Below are positions 50,599 to 59,151 of a stretch of DNA of 64,000 bases, in pieces. Origin of the DNA: Gemmobacter lanyuensis (GTDB lineage: Bacteria; Pseudomonadota; Alphaproteobacteria; Rhodobacterales; Rhodobacteraceae); the NCBI RefSeq assembly GCF_014652355.1, contig NZ_BMYQ01000001.1:494180-558179 (forward strand), written 5' to 3'. Position numbers and translations under genes: made by a program. The notes under the pieces were generated by a model that was given only the letters and a program-made list of their open reading frames with translations, was not told the DNA's origin and made no database searches. The stretch's first letter is position 1. Each line of letters begins with the position of its first letter.

Positions 50599-51387
50599 TC
50601 AGCAGGCCGCCAGAACTGCCCGCTTGGTCAGCACCTTGCACAGATGGGCGCGATAGGCCCCCGTGCCATGCAAGTCCGAGATCATGTCATCGCCCGACAG
50701 GCTCAGCCCCTCGATCGCATCGGGCGTGAAGCTGGCCGAAAGCGCGGCCTCGGCCTCGGCCCAGCGGAAGACCCCGTCGTTCGAGGCCCCGGTGATCGCC
50801 ACCCGCACGCCCGAGGCGAACTTGGCAACGAACACCCCCGTCAGCGCAAAGCGCGAGGCCGGTTGGTCGAACTTCACATAGGCCGCCTTTTCCGGGATCG
50901 GAAAGCGCACCTCGGTGATGATCTCACCCTCCTCGAGCGCGGTTGAGAACATGCCAAGGAAATAGTCATCCGCCGCGATCTGCCGGGCATTGGTGACAAT
51001 CACCGCCCCCGACCCAAGCACAGCCGAAGGGTAACAGGCCGAAGGGTCATTGTTGGCAAGGCTGCCGCCAATGGTGCCACGGCTGCGCACCGCCGGATCC
51101 CCGATCCCTGCCGCAAGACAGGCAAGCGCGGGATAATGCGCCCCCGCCTCGGCCGCGACGGTGGCATGGGGCGTTGCCGCCCCGATATGCAGCCCGCTGT
51201 CCCCGCGGCAAACGCCCGTCATCTCGGCGATGCCGGTCAGGCTGACCAGCACATCCGGGGTGTTCAGACGCTGCTTCATGGTGGGGATCAGGGTCTGCCC
51301 GCCCGACAGGGCCACGGCCCCCTCGCTTGATAATGCCTTCACCGCATCCGCGATGCTGGAGGGTTTGACGAATTGGAAATCACGCAT
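50599..51387 (-). CDS. Molybdenum hydroxylase FAD-binding subunit (CoxM-like)
   Basis: The 262-residue protein is the medium, FAD-binding subunit of a xanthine-dehydrogenase-family enzyme. FAD motifs are [16 protein letters not shown] (residues 27-42) and a second [17 protein letters not shown]. The C-terminal CO-dehydrogenase flavoprotein domain follows. It carries electrons from the Fe-S subunit to an acceptor. It is the last gene of the G-S-L-M order seen here. The substrate of the complex is not defined. Confidence 0.88.
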
Positions 51388-51397
51388 CGCAGCCTCC

Positions 51398-53770
51398 TTA
51401 CGCGTTCATCGCCGCCCAGACGCGCGACGGCGTCAGGGGCATGTCGATATGGGTGATGTCGGTGCGCCCGGCGCGATGCAGGGCATCGATCACCGCATTC
51501 ACCACCGCAGGCGGCGATCCGATGGCCCCGGCCTCACCACAGCCCTTCACCCCCAGCGGGTTGTGCGTGCAAGGCGTGCAGCAGGAATGATCGACCTTGA
51601 ACATCGGCAGATCATCGGCCCGCGGCATGGCGTAATCCATGAAGGACCCCGACAGAAGCTGGCCGTTTTCATCATAGACGCAGTTTTCCAGCAACGCCTG
51701 ACCAATGCCCTGCGCCAGACCGCCCTGCACCTGGCCTTCGACGATCATCGGGTTGACGATATTGCCGAAGTCATCCGCCGCGCTGAAGGCGAGGATCTGC
51801 ACCTTGCCGGTTTCGGGATCAACCTCAACCTCGCAGCCATAGGCGCCCGAGGGATAGGTAAAGTTCGACGGATCATAGAAAGCCGTCTCTTCCAGCCCCG
51901 GCTCCATGCTTTCCAGCGGGTAGTTATGCGGCACATAGGCCGCCAACGTCACCCCCGTCCAATCGACCGATTTGTCGGTGCCGGCGACGCTGAACTTGCC
52001 GTCCTTCAGCTCGATATCGGCCTCGCTGGCCTCAAGCAGATGGGCCGCGATCTTCTTGGCCTTGTTGATGATCTTGTTCGTGGCCTTCACGATGGCCGAT
52101 CCCCCCACGGCCAGCGAGCGCGAGCCATAGGTGCCCATGCCCATCGGCGTGTTCGAGGTATCGCCATGCACGATCTCGATCTGACTGGCATCCACGCCGA
52201 TCATCTCGGCCACGACCTGGGCAAAGCTGGTCTCATGCCCCTGACCATGGCTGTGGCTGCCGGTAAAGACCGAAATCGACCCCGTGGCATTCACCCGCAC
52301 CGTGGCGCTTTCATAAAGCCCCGCCCGCGCGCCCAGCTGCCCCACAAGGTTCGAGGGCGCGATACCGCAGGCCTCGATATAATGGGCGATGCCAAAGCCG
52401 CGCAGCTTTCCCCGCGCCTTGGATTCCGCCGCCCGCGCCTCAAAGCCCGCGTGGTCGGAAATCTCCAGCAGCTTGTCCATCGTGGCGTGGTAGTTGCCGG
52501 TGTCATAGACCACGGCGACCGGCGTCTGATAGGGGAACTGATCGGGGGTGATGAAGTTCTGGCGCCGCAACGCCACCGGATCAACGCCCAGCTCGCGCGC
52601 GGCCTTGTCCACCAGACGTTCCAGCTGGAAGGTCGCCTCGGGGCGACCCGCGCCACGATAGGCATCGACCGGCACGGTGTTGGTGAACACGGCCTTCACG
52701 TTCACATAGATCAGCGGCGTGCGGTAGTTGCCCGCCATCAGCGTGCCATGCAGCCACGTCGGGATCGAGGGCGCGAAGGTCGAGAGGTAAGCCCCCATAT
52801 TCGCATAGGTTTCAGTGCGAAGCGCGGTGAAGTTGTTGTCACCATCCAGTGCAAGCTGGATCTTGGTCACATGGTCGCGGCCCTGCGCGTCCGAGATGAA
52901 GGCCTCGGACCGGGTCGAGGTCCATTTGACCGGCACGCCCAGCGTTTTCGCCGCGAAGGTCACGAAGGCCTCTTCGGCATAGTGGTAGATCTTCGATCCG
53001 AAACCACCGCCCACATCGGGCGCCACCACGCGCAGCTTGCTTTCCGGGATGCCCAGCACGAAGGCCCCCATCAGCAGGCGGATCACATGCGGGTTCTGCG
53101 AGGTGGTGTAAAGCGTCGAATTGCCCGAATGGCTTTCGTAATCGCCCACCGCCACCCGCGGCTCCATCGGGTTGGCGACGAGACGGTTGTTGATCAGCTC
53201 CAGCGTGGTGACATGGGCGGCCTTGGCAAAGGCCTCATCGACAGCGGCCTTGTTCTCTTCGACAAAACCCCAATCATAGCAAAGGTTTGAGGTCAGCTCT
53301 TCATGAACTTTCGGACTGTCGGGCTGCAATGCGGCCTTCATGTCCAGAACCGGCGTCAGTTCGGTGATGTCGATCTCGACCGCCTCGGCGGCGTCGCGCG
53401 CCTGGTCCAGCGTTTCGGCCACCACCACGGCGATCGGATCGCCCACATGGCGCACCTTGCCATCGGCCAGAACCGGGTGTTTCGGTTCCTGCATCGGCTT
53501 GCCAAAGCGGTCGGTCACCTGCCAGCCGCAAGGAATGCCGCCCACGCCGGCGAAATCGGCGGCGGTAAAGACCTTCAGCACACCGGGCATCGCCTCGGCG
53601 GCGCTGACATCGACCTTGTTCAGCGTGCCATGTGCCACTTCCGACCGGACAAACCAGGCATAGGCCTGTCCGCGAATGTTGATATCGTCCGTATAGCGGC
53701 CCTTTCCGGTCAGGAACCGCACATCCTCGCGCCGCTTGGTGCTGGCGCCGATGCCACCGTCTTTCGGCAT
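51398..53770 (-). CDS. Molybdenum hydroxylase large subunit, form II CoxL-like
   Basis: This 790-residue subunit binds the molybdopterin cytosine dinucleotide cofactor. Two conserved regions are visible: an N-terminal [20 protein letters not shown] and the C-terminal [20 protein letters not shown] with the catalytic Glu. The active-site loop reads [10 protein letters not shown], the form II signature, whereas true CO dehydrogenases (form I) have AYRCSFR. CO oxidation is thus unlikely, and an aldehyde or heterocycle substrate is more probable. No maturation genes (coxD, coxE, coxF) occur in the window. Confidence 0.88.
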
Positions 53771-53828
53771 TTATTCCTCCCTTGATGCGAAGCGTCTGGG
53801 TCGCCTCGCAAGACCCTGTTTTAAATGC

Positions 53829-54314
53829 TTATTCCGCTGCGATCTGACCGACATCCTGCCCGGATGCCGCCAGCACCGCCTTGACGATGTTGTGATAGCC
53901 CGTGCAGCGGCAGATATTGCCCTCAAGGTGATGACGCACCTCGGACTCGGTCGGTTTAGGGTTCTGTTCCAGAAGGGCCGCCGCCGCCATCACCATGCCG
54001 GGGGTGCAGAACCCGCACTGCAACCCGTGATGGTCCTGAAAGGCCTGTTGCAGGCGCGACAGCGTGCCATCCTTGTTTGCCATGCCCTCGATCGTGCGCA
54101 CATCGCCGCCTGCGGCATCCACCGCAAAGACCGTGCAGCTTTTCACCTGTTTGCCGTCCAGATGCACCGTGCAGGCCCCGCATTGCGAGGTGTCGCAACC
54201 GACATGCGTTCCGGTGAGGTTCAGTCCTTCGCGCAGAAAGGCGGACAGCAGGGTCCGCCCCTCTACCTCACGGGTCACGGACTTGCCGTTCACCGTCATC
54301 GTGACTTTCGCCAT
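53829..54314 (-). CDS. Molybdenum hydroxylase [2Fe-2S] subunit (CoxS-like)
   Basis: The 161-residue protein carries two [2Fe-2S] clusters. The plant-type ferredoxin domain has [11 protein letters not shown] with a further Cys in VKSC, and the C-terminal helical domain has CGFCTPGM and ICRCTGY. All eight ligands are present. It relays electrons from the Mo site to FAD. It is cytosolic and lies between the coxG-like and coxL-like genes. Confidence 0.93.
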
Positions 54315-54352
54315 TCTCTCCTCCCTGGCTTTATGCTTGGTGGGCGCGGACC

Positions 54353-54889
54353 TCAGCTGATGAGCTTTCTGAACCAGCCCTTCTTTTCCGGCTCCCCGCT
54401 CCCGGGGGCGTCAGCCGAGGTTTCGGGGGTGGGCGGCTCCTCTTCCGCCGGCCCTTCGACCGCCTGCTGGAAACGTTCAAAGAATTCGTCGGCCATCTTC
54501 TTGGCAAAGCCGTCGATGATGCGGCTGCCCAGCTGCGCAAGCTTGCCGCCCACGCTGGCCTCAACCTCATAGGACAGAAGGGTTCCGGCGTCACACGGGC
54601 TGAGCGTGACACGCGCACCGCCCTTGGCAAAGCCTGCGGGGCCCCCCTTGCCTTCGCCGGAAATCGTGAGGCTTTGCCCTTCGACCACATCCGAGATGGT
54701 GACAACCCCGGTGAAGCGCGCCTTGACCGGCCCCACCTTCTGCACCACCACCGCTTCAAACCCCTCGGCGGGCGATCCGGTCACAGTCTCACATCCCGGA
54801 ATTGCCGCCTGAAGCATGGCCGGGTCCAGAATGGCGGCCCAGACAGTGGCGGGTGCGGCCCGGATCTCGCGCTGATCACTCAGTTGCAT
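54353..54889 (-). CDS. CoxG-like SRPBCC protein
   Basis: The 178-residue protein has a START/Bet v1-type CoxG domain ([20 protein letters not shown], then PGCETVTG and [12 protein letters not shown]). An extra acidic, proline-rich linker (residues 145-168) and a basic aromatic end ([10 protein letters not shown]) follow; in known CoxG proteins such tails help anchor the Mo enzyme at the membrane. I chose ATG 54889 with GGGAGAG upstream. It heads the hydroxylase genes. Confidence 0.85.
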
Positions 54890-54941
54890 GCGTCTCTCCC
54901 TCCATTCCCCGAGGCTAGCGCGAAGCCCCGTGATATCGCTA

Positions 54942-57173
54942 TCAAACCAAAGTCGTAGTTGCAGGCAGGGATGCCAGCCAGCTTTCCAGCGCGCGGGCAT
55001 CAATCGGCTTGAGAAACCGGGGAATCCCGGCGGCGTCGCAGTCGGCCGCAAGGTCGCGGCTTCGTTCGGCGGTGATCAGACAGGCAGGCAATTTCCCATA
55101 GCGTGCCCGGATTAGCCTTATGAAATCAAGCCCCGTCATGCCTTCGCCCAGCTGCTGATCGACGAGGAATACATCCGGGAGGATGCCTATCTCCTCAATG
55201 AGGGACAGGGCCTCTTCGGCGCTGCCCGCATCCAGCACCGAAATCCCCCAGCGTTCCAGCAAGAGGCACATGGCGTGCCGCAGGTCGGGTTCGTTTTCCA
55301 CCAGAAACACGATACGGCTGCCGGGTTCGGACACCGGATCGGCCACGGGGGGCGCCATGGGCGGATATAGATCAGTCGCGCTGTCGGTGCGGGTCAGTTG
55401 CAGCATGAAACAGCTGCCAAGCCCGACCTCGGATTGCAGGCCCAGCGGATGCCCGAGGGCTGCACAGGCGCGCTCGACAATGGCGAGGCCCAGCCCCATC
55501 CCCTCGGACGCCGAGGCCGGGGCATCCAGCCGGTGAAATTCACGGAAGATCGCGTCCTGATCGGCCTCGGCGATGCCGGGGCCGGTGTCGCGCACCTCAA
55601 GCCGGATCATGCCGCCCTGCCGGCGCGCGCCCACCAGCACGCGCCCCTGCCGGGTATAGCGCACCGCATTGCCGATCAGGTTCTGCAGGATGCGCCGCAG
55701 ATAGGCCGGGTCGGAAATCACCACCGCCGAACAGGGCATCACCGTCAGCCGCAGCCCCTTGGCCGCGGCAATGGCGGCAAATTCCTCGCGCAGCGGATCA
55801 AGGATACGGTTCAGCCGCACCGGCACCGGATTGACCGCCATCCGCCCGGTTTCCAGCTTGGAGATATCGAGCAGCGCCGACAGGATGCCCTCGACCTGCC
55901 CCAGCGCATTCTGCGCCTTGGTGATCGCCTCGGCCGCCGCCGGGGCCAAGGCGGCCGCGCCGATGGACCCGATGAACAGCTTGGCCGCCGACAAAGGTTG
56001 CAGCAGATCGTGGCTGGCCGCCGCCACGAACCGCGCGCGGCTGGCATTGGCGCGTTCGGCATCGGCCAGCGCATCGGCCAGCTCGAGCGTGCGCTCCATC
56101 ACCCGCGCCTCCAGCGTTTCATTCACCGCCGAGAGCTGTTCCAGCGCCGCGCGTTCCGGGGTGATGTCGGTGAAGGACAGCACAAAGCCACCATCGGGCA
56201 TTTCCTCGGCATCGGCCTGCAGGATCAGCAGCGGCCCGCGCCGCACCTCGAAATGCAGTTTGGGGCGGCCGGGGGGCGCCTCGGCCCAGGCGGCCAGGGT
56301 GGCGGCATCCATGCCCTCGCCAAAGGTGGTTTCGGTGTCGAGCCGTTCCAGCAGCGTGGTAAACCCCAGCCCCATGCGGAACCGCGTGAGCGGGATCGCC
56401 AGCAAATCGCCCAGCCGGTTGTTCCACCCCACCAGCCGCTGCCGCCCATCAAAGATGCAGACCCCCTGGCTGATGTGGTCCAGCGTCGCGCGGATGATCC
56501 GGGCCTGGTCGTCCAGCATCCGCCCGCGTTCTTCCCGCTCCAGCCGGATAATGTCGGTCACATCGGTCTGGATGATGACCGTGCCGCCGTTCTGCGTGCG
56601 ATGTTCGGACACCTGCAGCCAGCGGTCCCAGACAAGCCGCACGTTGAAGATGACATGCCGGTCCTGATGGCGCTTGCGCCGCCGCACCGCCCAATCCGCA
56701 GGGGTTTCCCCCTCCGGCAGCGCCAGATAACGCGAGGTGCTGACCCGTTCGACATAGGCATCGAAGGACAGGCCCGGCTTCAGATGGTCGCGCAGGTCCA
56801 GCATATGCATCCCGAAGCGCGAGTTGCACATGACCAGCACCTCGTCGGGGCCGAAGAGGGCAAAGCCCTCCTGCACCGTCTCGATCGCATCGGCAAGGTT
56901 GCGCCGAGCGGCCTCGGTTTCGCGGTTGGCCTCGGCCAGACGGGCGTTCGACTGGTGCAGCAGATCGAGCGTGCGTTCCAGATCGCGTGTGCGGGCGCTG
57001 ACCTGATCTTCCAGCATGGCGGCACGCTGGAATTGCGCATAGGCCGCGCCGCTGTCATCGGTCACCTGTTCGACCCGCCGCATCAGCGCCTCGGCAATTG
57101 CCAGAAGCTTGTCGCGCTGGCGTTCAGGCGGGTCGGCCGGGTTCAGCAGGCTTTGGGCGCGGGGGCGGGTCAT
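54942..57173 (-). CDS. PAS-containing hybrid histidine kinase (NahK/ErcS'-like)
   Basis: The 743-residue cytoplasmic kinase starts with a coiled coil (residues 25-95) and two PAS-type domains (TVQEGFALFGPDEVLVMCNS; ISQGVCIFDGRQRLVGWNN). A second coiled coil leads to the HisKA motif AAASHDLLQPLSAAKLFI, then the ATPase domain (NAVRYTRQG, DTGPGIAEAD, EGMGLGLAIVER). A C-terminal receiver carries the phospho-Asp in VFLVDQQLGEGMTG. There are no membrane helices. It lies 7 bases after the FIST gene and 52 before the coxG-like gene, resembling NahK next to NosP. Confidence 0.88.
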   Translation of the reverse strand: MTRPRAQSLLNPADPPERQRDKLLAIAEALMRRVEQVTDDSGAAYAQFQRAAMLEDQVSARTRDLERTLDLLHQSNARLAEANRETEAARRNLADAIETVQEGFALFGPDEVLVMCNSRFGMHMLDLRDHLKPGLSFDAYVERVSTSRYLALPEGETPADWAVRRRKRHQDRHVIFNVRLVWDRWLQVSEHRTQNGGTVIIQTDVTDIIRLEREERGRMLDDQARIIRATLDHISQGVCIFDGRQRLVGWNNRLGDLLAIPLTRFRMGLGFTTLLERLDTETTFGEGMDAATLAAWAEAPPGRPKLHFEVRRGPLLILQADAEEMPDGGFVLSFTDITPERAALEQLSAVNETLEARVMERTLELADALADAERANASRARFVAAASHDLLQPLSAAKLFIGSIGAAALAPAAAEAITKAQNALGQVEGILSALLDISKLETGRMAVNPVPVRLNRILDPLREEFAAIAAAKGLRLTVMPCSAVVISDPAYLRRILQNLIGNAVRYTRQGRVLVGARRQGGMIRLEVRDTGPGIAEADQDAIFREFHRLDAPASASEGMGLGLAIVERACAALGHPLGLQSEVGLGSCFMLQLTRTDSATDLYPPMAPPVADPVSEPGSRIVFLVENEPDLRHAMCLLLERWGISVLDAGSAEEALSLIEEIGILPDVFLVDQQLGEGMTGLDFIRLIRARYGKLPACLITAERSRDLAADCDAAGIPRFLKPIDARALESWLASLPATTTLV

Positions 57174-57180
57174 GCGGGGG

Positions 57181-58305
57181 TCACACCCCGGGCGGATAGA
57201 TGGCGACCCCGGTCATGGTCTGGTTCACATGCATGGAATTCAGCTGTTCGCCATAGGTGGAAAAGCCGATGACCCGGTGGTCGCGCAGGATGGCCGACAG
57301 CGCACCGGACATCTGCTTTTCCAGCGCCTCCATCCGGCGCAGAATGCAATCGCAGGCCAGGATCGCCTCGGGCGCACTGCCTTCCGACAGGCCCGCCAGT
57401 TCGCGCTCCAGATGGGCGACCATGTCCTGCGGTTCGGCCAGCGTCAGCACCAGCCCTTCGTCAATGGCGGAAAAGAACACCAGATCCCCGTTTGGGGCGA
57501 CCTGCTGGATCGCGCGCACATGATGCCGCCCGCCGATCCGCACCACCACGGGATGGGCGGCAAAGGTAAAGGTATCCAGCTGCCCCGGGTCCTTGCCCAA
57601 AAGCCGCGCATATTCCCGCGCGGCGGGTTCGGCATTGATCTTGCGCACGATGCGATTGGCGGGGTCGGCCTCGGTCACCACCATGCGGGTATTGGTCGGC
57701 ACCAGATGGTCAAGGTTGAAGACCCGCGCCCGGCAGCGCGAGCGCACCATGGCCAGCACCGCCGCATCGCGCAGCGCCTGCCCGCCATGCAGCACAAAGG
57801 TTTCGCGGAACCGCGTCCCATCGCCCGCCGACCCGCCGAACAGCGGCACGGGACCCAGGCCCGCAGCCAGCGTCGCCGTCAGCTCATCTTCCCGGGTGGA
57901 CAGGCCGTCGACCATCAGGAAGGCAAATTCATGGTCCCAATCCGGGTTCCGCCCCCCGAGTGCGGTGCGCGCCCGGATCAGCCGACCGATCAGCTCTTGC
58001 CGGTTCAGCGCGGTCAGCTGCGGGATGAAGATCAGTTCAGCATCGAAATGTTCGCGCGGCAGCCCCATGGCGACGATGCCCCCCTCGGTATAGCCTTCGG
58101 GCGAAATCTCCCCCGCCGTGGTGCAGCCGATCACCGGCGCATCAAAGCACGCGCCCTCGAGCACCGCGGCCAGATCTGCCTCGGGCGAGACAAAGAGCAT
58201 CACGCAGGCAAAAGGCCCCGGCCCCAGCGCCCGCGCCAGATCGGCGCCCGCACTGGCAGACCGCGCCGGAACATGCGCGCTGACGATTACCCGTCCCTCG
58301 GTCAT
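57181..58305 (-). CDS. FIST-domain sensory protein (NosP-like)
   Basis: The 374-residue protein has an N-terminal FIST domain (residues 30-215; APVIGCTTAGEISPEGYTEGG, PLFGGSAGDGTRF) and a C-terminal FIST_C domain (ILACDCILRRMEALEK, GFSTYGEQ). FIST proteins sense small ligands; NosP of Pseudomonas aeruginosa binds haem and nitric oxide and inhibits the adjacent kinase NahK. The identical arrangement with a PAS kinase suggests a similar input role here. Haem binding cannot be read from sequence alone. Confidence 0.85.
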   Translation of the reverse strand: MTEGRVIVSAHVPARSASAGADLARALGPGPFACVMLFVSPEADLAAVLEGACFDAPVIGCTTAGEISPEGYTEGGIVAMGLPREHFDAELIFIPQLTALNRQELIGRLIRARTALGGRNPDWDHEFAFLMVDGLSTREDELTATLAAGLGPVPLFGGSAGDGTRFRETFVLHGGQALRDAAVLAMVRSRCRARVFNLDHLVPTNTRMVVTEADPANRIVRKINAEPAAREYARLLGKDPGQLDTFTFAAHPVVVRIGGRHHVRAIQQVAPNGDLVFFSAIDEGLVLTLAEPQDMVAHLERELAGLSEGSAPEAILACDCILRRMEALEKQMSGALSAILRDHRVIGFSTYGEQLNSMHVNQTMTGVAIYPPGV

Positions 58306-58350
58306 CCGGTGCGCCTCCCTTCGCCCCGTTGGCCCTATGTGGCGGCCCGA

Positions 58351-59028
58351 TCAGCCGTTTTCTGGCATGATCGAGCTGAAGCTTGCCTCATTCGCGATCA
58401 GCACCGCCTGCGTGCGGCTTTGCACGCCGAGCTTCCGCATGATCGCCGTGACATGCGCCTTCACGGTAGTTTCTGCGATCGAAAGATCATAGGCAATCTG
58501 CTTGTTCAGCCGCCCCTCACAAATCAGCTGCAGGATCTTGGCCTGCTGGCGCGTCAGCAGCGCCAGCCGCGACAGCGCCTGTTCGCGCGAGGTGACGGGG
58601 CCACCCTCGCTGCCCGGGCGGACAAAGCCCTCGGGGCTATAGGTTGCGCCTGCACGGATCGCCTCGAAGGCGTCGCGGAACACCTCGCGCCCGGAATGTT
58701 TCGGGATGAAGCCCGCCGCCCCCGCCTGAAACACCGCCGCGATGACCCGGTCGTCGCTGAGGCTTGAGACCACCACCACCGGCGCCGCCCCCGCCGCCGC
58801 GCGCAGCCGGATCAGCCCGTCAAGGCCCGTGACATCCGGCAGGTTCAGGTCCAGCACGATGACATCGGGCAAGGGCGTCAGGTCGAGCCGCGCCAGCGCC
58901 GCCTCCAGCCGGTCGACGGTTTCCACCCGTTCCACCCCCGCCACGGCCCGCAAGGTGATGGACAGCGCATCACAGAACAGCGGGTGGTCATCAATGATCA
59001 AGGCGGTAGCCAGAACACGGTCGGACAT
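58351..59028 (-). CDS. LuxR-family response regulator
   Basis: The 225-residue protein has an intact receiver (residues 8-130; acidic DDHP, phospho-Asp in VIVLDLNLPDVTG, Lys in FIPKHSG). A LuxR helix-turn-helix covers residues 150-215 (LSRLALLTRQQAKILQLI, NKQIAYDLSIAETTVKAHV). It belongs with the FIST and kinase genes downstream, and the set resembles ErbR/AgmR beside NosP and ErcS' in Pseudomonas. It is the first gene of the minus-strand run ending in the molybdenum hydroxylase and is its likely activator. Confidence 0.88.
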   Translation of the reverse strand: MSDRVLATALIIDDHPLFCDALSITLRAVAGVERVETVDRLEAALARLDLTPLPDVIVLDLNLPDVTGLDGLIRLRAAAGAAPVVVVSSLSDDRVIAAVFQAGAAGFIPKHSGREVFRDAFEAIRAGATYSPEGFVRPGSEGGPVTSREQALSRLALLTRQQAKILQLICEGRLNKQIAYDLSIAETTVKAHVTAIMRKLGVQSRTQAVLIANEASFSSIMPENG

Positions 59029-59097
59029 GGGGCATCCCTTTCGCAATGGACCCAGTGTAACGCAGGTCCACCCCAGAGCAAGCAAGCCGAAAGTCGA

Positions 59098-59133
59098 AGG
59101 CCCCGCGCGCCGGTCGGGCACGCGGGGCCTTGC
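59098..59133 (-). terminator. Terminator of the glycogen operon
   Basis: AAGGCCCCGCG, loop CGCCGGTCGGGCA, CGCGGGGCCTT lies about 20 bases beyond the pgm stop on the minus strand. Confidence 0.7.
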
Positions 59134-59151
59134 CAAGGCTGCGGGCGGCGA

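Follow-up and report, generated by a model that had tools for sequence, protein, structure and literature searches.

In a 64,000-nucleotide stretch of the Gemmobacter lanyuensis genome (contig NZ_BMYQ01000001.1, positions 494,180 to 558,179; hereafter the window), genes for a LuxR-type response regulator, a FIST protein and a PAS hybrid kinase (together, the trio) stand directly before coxG, coxS, coxL and coxM, which encode a form II molybdenum hydroxylase. The trio and the cox genes seem to belong to a bacterial regulon for alcohol oxidation that is conserved. We think it probable that the trio is a switch of the kind associated with ped-type alcohol oxidation, that coxGSLM is among the operons it controls, and that CoxSLM oxidises an aldehyde or a near derivative. 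This reading is built on gene clustering, a split of the cluster in G. lanyuensis, an empty site left at its other half, a shared motif and a link between motif and trio, all computed here. Together they suggest that the coxG-type form II enzyme handles a breakdown product of alcohols or aldehydes, not carbon monoxide (CO).

Conservation of the trio with cox and ped genes

Co-conservation of the trio with coxGSLM in related genomes had been set beforehand as a test of the original prediction, which was made from the letters of the window, and it was found both among close relatives and as order-wide linkage. Scanning genome contigs turned up 177 FIST relatives, and 80 of them were retained. 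In 60 of the 80, the fetched stretch includes cox genes (coxL itself in 55), directly beside the trio in most of the 60 and about 6 to 8 kb past the kinase in L018 and L062. Among the 20 relatives lacking cox, 10 have a pyrroloquinoline quinone (PQQ) alcohol dehydrogenase on the stretch instead, and at least three (L032, L064, L068) are contigs that end too early to judge. L018 holds the trio, the PQQ dehydrogenase, ped genes and cox genes all together. Near-duplicates occur among the loci (L072/L093 and L081/L109 have identical sites). The trio-cox grouping recurs across many Rhodobacterales genera, and it survives rearrangement, because the trio and coxGSLM are co-directional in some relatives, as in G. 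lanyuensis, and divergent in others. The seven-gene grouping is not due to chance.

FIST was found in 95 of 196 sampled genomes of the order, and a coxL match with E of at most 1e-150, which may include other subtypes, in 166. Linkage was counted in the 79 genomes with a close FIST (about 49% identity or more), among the matches listed, and the counts are hence lower bounds: FIST and coxL lie within 25 kb of each other in at least 35 of the 68 genomes having both, FIST and the PQQ_ABC propeller gene in at least 33 of 54, and coxL and PQQ_ABC in at least 21 of 53, where random expectation is about 1%. Co-occurrence is also strong, since a close FIST is present in 54 of the 70 genomes with a PQQ_ABC propeller gene versus 25 of the 126 without one.

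The wider setting emerges from a comparison of the full cluster in 20 stretches, one of them from G. lanyuensis (position is the sole basis for the name PedB). L092-L102 and L108-L110 share the arrangement kinase-FIST-LuxR, PQQ dehydrogenase, additional ABC genes, PedC-PedB-PQQ_ABC genes, PedF with a binding protein (SBP), and coxG-S-L-M, certain members being missing or past the stretch end in single loci. The trio of L107 is in place but inverted relative to the other full clusters; L103-L105 have the trio and cox with the rest of the cluster not on the stretch, and L106 adds only PedC/PedB. Several of the full clusters also have an ApbE/NosR-like pair next to coxM, on its far side from coxL.

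By family and similarity, the ped-type system (PQQ alcohol dehydrogenase, PQQ_ABC propeller, PedC, PedF) is also present in the 4.03-Mb genome of G. lanyuensis (G000; contigs numbered C1, C12 and so on). The PedC-PedB-PQQ_ABC/PedF-SBP genes lie at C12:2.5-8.4 kb and the PQQ dehydrogenase at C12:25.3-26.9 kb; the trio and cox genes of the window are on C1, not physically linked to the ped genes as they are in L092-L102 and L107-L110. On C12, ApbE and NosR-like genes stand directly after PedF-SBP, and the position that coxGSLM holds in relatives is empty. Because PedF-SBP adjoins the ApbE/NosR-like pair where relatives hold coxGSLM, the window operon looks like a segment departed from the ped cluster, with the trio now beside pgm. 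The original prediction knew of no described system with this layout. That layout proves not to be isolated, and appears to be part of a ped-type PQQ alcohol-oxidation cluster that has moved elsewhere.

Pseudomonas already provides an example of a FIST-kinase pair within a PQQ alcohol cluster: its ped/exa cluster combines PP_2663-PedS1-AgmR with PQQ alcohol dehydrogenases (PMC12997753, in its available passages). Shared with that cluster are the FIST protein and soluble hybrid kinase in a PQQ alcohol setting, and the PedC, PQQ_ABC propeller, binding-protein and PedF families. Unlike it, the Rhodobacterales cluster has coxGSLM, the Pseudomonas one having an NAD aldehyde dehydrogenase (PedI), and in G. 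lanyuensis the cluster is divided between two contigs. In Ruegeria pomeroyi, a quinoprotein ethanol dehydrogenase is encoded by SPO1508, and coxL-1 is SPO1519 (PMC10041152 for SPO1519, from the part available); judged by locus tags, eleven apart, the two are consistent with such a cluster.

Several neighbours of the ped-type genes deserve mention in their own right. The PQQ dehydrogenase sequence contains an Asp-x-Asp stretch, which we take to be the mark of a lanthanide-type enzyme. For a related putative enzyme, this stretch is named as diagnostic in the accessible text of PMC11996626. The PQQ dehydrogenase gene is faced by convergent genes resembling gbcAB (glycine betaine monooxygenase, below cut-off; L091:7850-12000, on C12 of G. 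lanyuensis), and an MttB-like methyltransferase gene occurs in 18 related loci; a methyl or formaldehyde link is possible.

A predicted site shared by coxG and the ped genes

An inverted repeat with a consensus near TACGACCAAGGTCNNATA precedes coxG, the PQQ dehydrogenase and the PQQ_ABC genes, mostly about 50 nt upstream in the case of coxG. Across both strands of 130 promoters, GAC-N4-GTC was counted 116 times versus about 21 in shuffles, which amounts to about 58 sites versus about 11, because the pattern reads alike on both strands. A first motif model (threshold 9.1) was fitted on promoters that it then scored, so that a second model, trained on 27 PQQ alcohol dehydrogenase promoters (threshold 10.5), offers the fairer test. 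With promoters cut at contig ends removed, the second model marks 61 of 78 coxG promoters, as well as 20 of 25 PQQ_ABC and 19 of 24 PedF promoters, which face each other and share sites. It marks none of the control regions before coxM (0/70), coxS (0/78), coxL (0/73), FIST (0/99), pgm (0/34), MttB (0/17) and PedC (0/24). LuxR upstream regions are marked in 20 of 92 cases, 11 being the coxG site seen from the opposite side and nine lying in PQQ-dehydrogenase loci, and kinase upstream regions in 8 of 94, which are nearly one sequence within the fist reading frame and were taken for chance.

In the whole G. lanyuensis genome, a degenerate form of the pattern is matched exactly at four places, namely at coxG, at the PQQ dehydrogenase, in the divergent PQQ_ABC/PedF region and at the NosR-like gene; the NosR-like site is the only one of the four outside model training. 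Tolerating one mismatch raises the number to 10, versus two for a reversed control. Of the 77 exact sites in the 196 genomes, 41 have FIST or PQQ_ABC within 25 kb and 36 do not, with 43 for the control; after exclusion of the 20 stretch-donor genomes, which may leave some species of the 80 loci in the sample, 23 of 55 sites are near FIST or PQQ_ABC and 32 elsewhere, with 37 for the control. Because the counts elsewhere do not exceed the control matches, the excess of exact sites sits at FIST/PQQ_ABC genes.

Two occurrences of the site concern other genes. The NosR-like product is an iron-sulfur membrane protein (by eye; Pfam Fer4_5), and its gene together with ApbE (C12:8.4-11.4 kb; L118:8415-11347) lies below the same predicted site. 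A palindromic copy with one mismatch per strand is found at C6:83765-83784 (L128), about 60 nt before a Fis-type regulator gene (AcoR-like by eye), which has an aldehyde dehydrogenase gene on either side (the one identified by Pfam, the other by eye).

Compared by eye, the repeat, a predicted site, resembles the ACTU-type CrbR sites of P. fluorescens (PMC5715377, available passages). In this respect the system resembles the CrbS/CrbR (MxtR/ErdR) acetate regulon, with which it shares the response-regulator family and the presence, ahead of target promoters, of inverted repeats (for example TACTACCATCGTCGAAT); it differs in having a NahK-type kinase, not CrbS, and in its targets, which are PQQ alcohol dehydrogenase, ped and cox genes. 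The original prediction had brought in ErbR, a regulator of alcohol oxidation in Pseudomonas. The link to alcohol oxidation holds; the regulator itself is nearest to ErdR (NF041830, best of 59 NCBIfam families, 153.5 bits against a cut-off of 390), no ErbR model is among the 25 of these 59 matches listed, and the motif resembles the CrbR/ErdR site.

The position of the site also bears on transcription. A single transcript spanning all seven genes had been considered, and the original prediction counted a strong separate promoter together with unlinked expression of coxG-coxM against itself. The conserved site and a -10-like box favour an additional cox promoter, and an nTAnnnT element 20-odd nt past the motif recurs, by eye, among the relatives' promoters printed; a generic sigma-70 scan found no promoter upstream of coxG, and generic promoter and terminator scanning yielded no more than shuffles did. 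Overall, coxG-M probably have their own predicted promoter inside the 3' end of the kinase gene, which would make the arrangement one regulon instead of simply one transcript. The conserved site in front of coxG weakens the single-transcript idea; the short gaps still permit read-through.

The motif goes with the sensor. Twenty coxL loci without a linked trio were fetched and scored by the fitted model at its threshold of 9.1 (before coxS where coxG is lacking): 17 fall below, L137 is marginal at 9.4 over a ribosome-binding region, and two are clearly above at 19.9 and 22.6 (G187, G098), each with a close FIST elsewhere on the contig of the clear-motif coxL locus. L143 retains pgm/MttB surroundings and coxGSLM, but neither trio nor motif. 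This locus bears on the possibility that the trio and cox are joined by inherited synteny only, with no regulation in common. Although pgm and glgX are likewise nearby in many loci, the trio and cox stay together in co-directional and divergent layouts, inside or outside the ped cluster, and coxG and the PQQ alcohol dehydrogenase share a motif, so that we regard synteny alone as very improbable. For pgm and glgX, upstream of the trio, a glycogen or sugar link was also considered and rejected in favour of inherited synteny, because the trio-cox unit is also found without them on the fetched stretch.

Set against the alcohol-oxidation regulon are several observations. Neither coxL nor PQQ_ABC lies within 25 kb in 27 of the 79 close-FIST genomes, among the matches listed. 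The motif is missing from three of 78 coxG promoters by the fitted model and from 17 of 78 by the PQQ-ADH-trained one. PqqE (TIGR02109) was not detected at cut-off in the G. lanyuensis genome (best 89.8 of 381.35 bits), so PQQ would have to be imported, or the alcohol dehydrogenase may be idle. The aldehyde dehydrogenase genes flanking the near-match site on C6 could perform the aldehyde step. L144 (G001), of coxDEF type, has no motif despite a close FIST elsewhere in its genome, and most of the 20 trio-less form II loci are coxDEF-MoeA-SLM, with neither coxG nor motif. Because of the latter, our claim is limited to coxG-bearing, trio-linked form II genes. L131-L150 show a second form II type that lacks coxG and the motif; its order is coxD-E-XdhC-MoeA-S-L-M, and an infC-like gene (by eye) is frequently nearby. 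In the 10 coxDEF-type loci with enough sequence, the region before coxD scored below threshold throughout.

Coordinates and Pfam assignments agree with the original description of seven genes on one strand, in the order given above and with all gaps under 60 bp (Table 1); from LuxR to coxM the gaps are 45, 7, 52, 38, 58 and 10 bp. The FIST gene is the sole FIST match in the genome, the next best match of the LuxR-type regulator within the genome has 35% identity, and CoxD and CoxE are encoded elsewhere, near C1:139.6 kb. The presumed trio promoter region has no ACTU-like motif (the LuxR upstream region scores 3.6 against the threshold of 10.5), and its inverted repeat gave no call in the terminator scan.

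Table 1. Genes and predicted elements of the locus, in window coordinates
Feature	Position	Strand	Basis
Presumed trio promoter region (pgm-LuxR gap)	59029..59151	-	GC-rich inverted repeat by eye
LuxR-type response regulator (ErdR/CrbR-like)	58351..59028	-	Pfam Response_reg and GerE
FIST protein, NosP-related	57181..58305	-	Pfam FIST and FIST_C
PAS hybrid histidine kinase, NahK/ErcS-related	54942..57173	-	Pfam two PAS_7, HisKA, HATPase_c, Response_reg
Predicted site for the response regulator: ACTU-like inverted repeat covering the final kinase codons, about 50 nt upstream of coxG	54940..54959	-	Motif model
Predicted -10 box CTAGCCT	54912..54918	-	By eye, inference only
coxG (START-like)	54353..54889	-	COXG, PF06240, E 1.9e-26; start corrected from a TTG open reading frame
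coxS, [2Fe-2S] subunit	53829..54314	-	Pfam Fer2, Fer2_2
coxL, form II molybdenum large subunit, clade A	51398..53770	-	Pfam MoCoBD_1/2
coxM, FAD subunit	50599..51387	-	PF00941 FAD_binding_5

Identity of CoxL and its exchange between operons

The AYRGAGR motif that the original prediction read in the large subunit, in place of the CO dehydrogenase loop, is confirmed at residues 370-376 of CoxL. With this motif and the S-L-M gene order, the enzyme belongs to the form II CO dehydrogenase-like group as defined in the accessible parts of PMC13203968 and PMC13240472. The role of form II is called unclear and CO is doubted as its substrate (PMC13203968, PMC13240472, PMC6794299, available passages). 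Identity as a form I aerobic CO dehydrogenase was rejected, CoxL scoring 651.8 bits on TIGR02416 against a cut-off of 991 and having AYRGAGR for the loop (A/S)YRCS(F/L)R; so was glyceraldehyde dehydrogenase (NF041018-20; 660.1 of 790, 181.2 of 350 and 216.7 of 290 bits).

It could nonetheless be argued that the enzyme oxidises CO or another non-aldehyde substrate for maintenance energy and has merely borrowed an alcohol-responsive promoter. The best sequence matches in the PDB are indeed CO dehydrogenase large chains, and R. pomeroyi mutants in coxL-1 (SPO1519) are slightly less fit in mixed communities, for which the authors consider possible CO use (PMC10041152, in the text available). The replaced loop and the form I score below cut-off tell against this explanation, and we consider it unlikely. 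The pCOD coxSLM genes of Rubrivivax gelatinosus offer a comparison in that they share the S-L-M order and the xanthine-oxidase family; the available portions of the source neither call them form II nor show a CO function (PMC10434068). Unlike them, the G. lanyuensis operon has coxG and attached regulators and is without coxD/E.

In 72 loci, CoxL forms two clades, with 66-72% (47 loci) versus 75-100% (25 loci) identity to the CoxL of the window, and each of the 13 loci printed, which come from the two clades, has AYRGAGR. Trees were built from 65 of the 72 coxL loci, those with missing or short genes being dropped, and the sensor tree gave long-branch warnings. The clade label changes once on the CoxL tree, eight times on the coxS+M+G tree (at least five changes being forced by well-supported branches), again eight times on a coxS+M tree made with IQ-TREE (five forced), and nine times on the sensor tree (at least seven forced). 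Between the Defluviimonas loci L052 and L054, DNA identity drops over about the first 2 kb of coxL and is at least 84% again at the 3' end; exchange of coxL is seen at L052/L054/L060 and at L020/L010/L040, with breakpoints near the start and about 2 kb in. As judged from trees and breakpoints, coxL alone moved repeatedly between operons, and it is possible that these swaps retuned the substrate.

Candidate signals and the proposed regulon

The proposed kinship of the FIST-kinase pair with NosP-NahK is borne out, in that NosP and NahK/ErcS are the nearest models, all below cut-off. The FIST protein scores 376 bits over residues 16-369 on the NosP equivalog (NF041558, cut-off 450), and of the five FIST proteins scanned, at 370-392 bits, none passes; the kinase reaches 336.9 of 400 bits on NF041832 (NahK/ErcS C-terminal) and 374.9 of 1500 on NF041831. 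As with NosP-NahK in P. aeruginosa, Burkholderia and Legionella, the FIST gene adjoins that of a NahK-type kinase; the neighbouring output, however, is a LuxR-type regulator with a metabolic operon, not a cyclic di-GMP enzyme or HptB/Rsm. Signalling residues are well conserved in the alignments: kinase H388 in 94 of 94 sequences, receiver D672 in 86 of 94 and the phospho-acceptor D60 of the regulator in 92 of 92. In the FIST alignment, C61 and C320 are invariant in 100 sequences and H251, H261, H262, H298, H359 and E353 are conserved in at least 98. Separately, tblastn finds the kinase gene as two overlapping pieces in L059, L043 and L044, which may be decay or assembly error; L059 is also without cox genes.

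These data have a bearing on a switch operated by nitric oxide (NO), in which the FIST protein would be a true NosP, haem-bound NO would control the kinase, and the cox and PQQ genes would be turned down (or up) by NO in low-oxygen growth. NosP-kinase pairs answer NO in other bacteria (PMC12570481, PMC8846402, in the passages available), the NosP model matches over nearly the full length, and the FIST histidines and cysteines are conserved. Yet none of the five scanned FIST proteins reaches the equivalog cut-off, and the exact sites found in G. lanyuensis are located at alcohol-oxidation genes. We therefore keep NO control as a minority possibility. At C15:65-69 kb of G. lanyuensis, weak beta-propeller and radical-SAM matches may represent a nitrite-reductase cluster, which would be relevant to NO if true.

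As aldehydes are a product of the proposed pathway, their sensing by the FIST protein is a reasonable rival to NO sensing. By sequence, solved FIST structures gave chance-level matches only. The predicted model of the FIST protein (mean pLDDT, predicted local distance difference test, 75.6; residues 352-360, including E353, below 50) superposes on human FBXO22 with Z 17.8, root-mean-square deviation 3.5 and 250 aligned positions, the next family having Z 10.3. FBXO22 differs in being an F-box ubiquitin-ligase subunit, at 12% identity, and presumably shares a C-x-x-R likeness with the FIST protein. Aldehydes bind reversibly to Cys326 of its FIST domain, a reaction for which Glu362 is needed (PMC13316043, PMC11208438, available text); judged by residue numbers, the spacing from C320 to E353 is 33 residues versus 36 in FBXO22. 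It is tempting to speculate that coxG-bearing form II is the aldehyde oxidase of PQQ alcohol catabolism and that the FIST protein senses aldehyde through a Glu353-assisted hemithioacetal at Cys320, and not NO through haem, an idea that as a whole we hold only tentatively and think rather doubtful.

For the alcohol-oxidation regulon itself, we infer the phosphotransfer route, regulator binding, activation and direction of control, substrate and electron acceptor as follows. A signal sensed by the FIST protein would tune the soluble hybrid kinase, which would pass phosphate to the LuxR-type regulator directly or through an Hpt protein. The regulator would bind the TACGACC-type inverted repeat at the end of the kinase gene and activate the coxG-S-L-M promoter; on another contig it would also bind the copies of this repeat that belong to the PQQ alcohol dehydrogenase, to the PQQ_ABC/PedF genes and to the NosR-like/ApbE pair. 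In the periplasm, PQQ dehydrogenase would then convert alcohol to aldehyde, and in the cytoplasm CoxSLM would convert the aldehyde, or a near derivative, to acid. Electrons would leave by way of the flavin subunit CoxM, perhaps to quinone with the help of CoxG, which presumably has such a role.

The listings of our literature searches, which cover few subscription journals, showed no paper that connects form II cox with a PQQ alcohol dehydrogenase cluster or a FIST-kinase set, and likewise no description of the shared site, the split cluster or the CoxL swaps. The job of form II CO dehydrogenase has been open for years and is still called unclear or unresolved (PMC13203968, PMC13240472, accessible parts), and form II-like coxL is common, as its presence in 166 of 196 sampled genomes (which may include other subtypes) indicates. 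Tying the coxG-bearing, trio-linked subset to PQQ alcohol oxidation leads to a simple test in culturable Rhodobacterales, of which Gemmobacter aquatilis (L007) shares the layout seen here, and adds a further warning against scoring form II genes as CO oxidation in metagenomes. Aldehyde, moreover, becomes a second candidate signal for FIST sensors. If the aldehyde oxidase and sensor proposal is true, replacing the molybdenum part, CoxL, alone would retune the substrate range of the enzyme, with the sensor and the other subunits staying in place.

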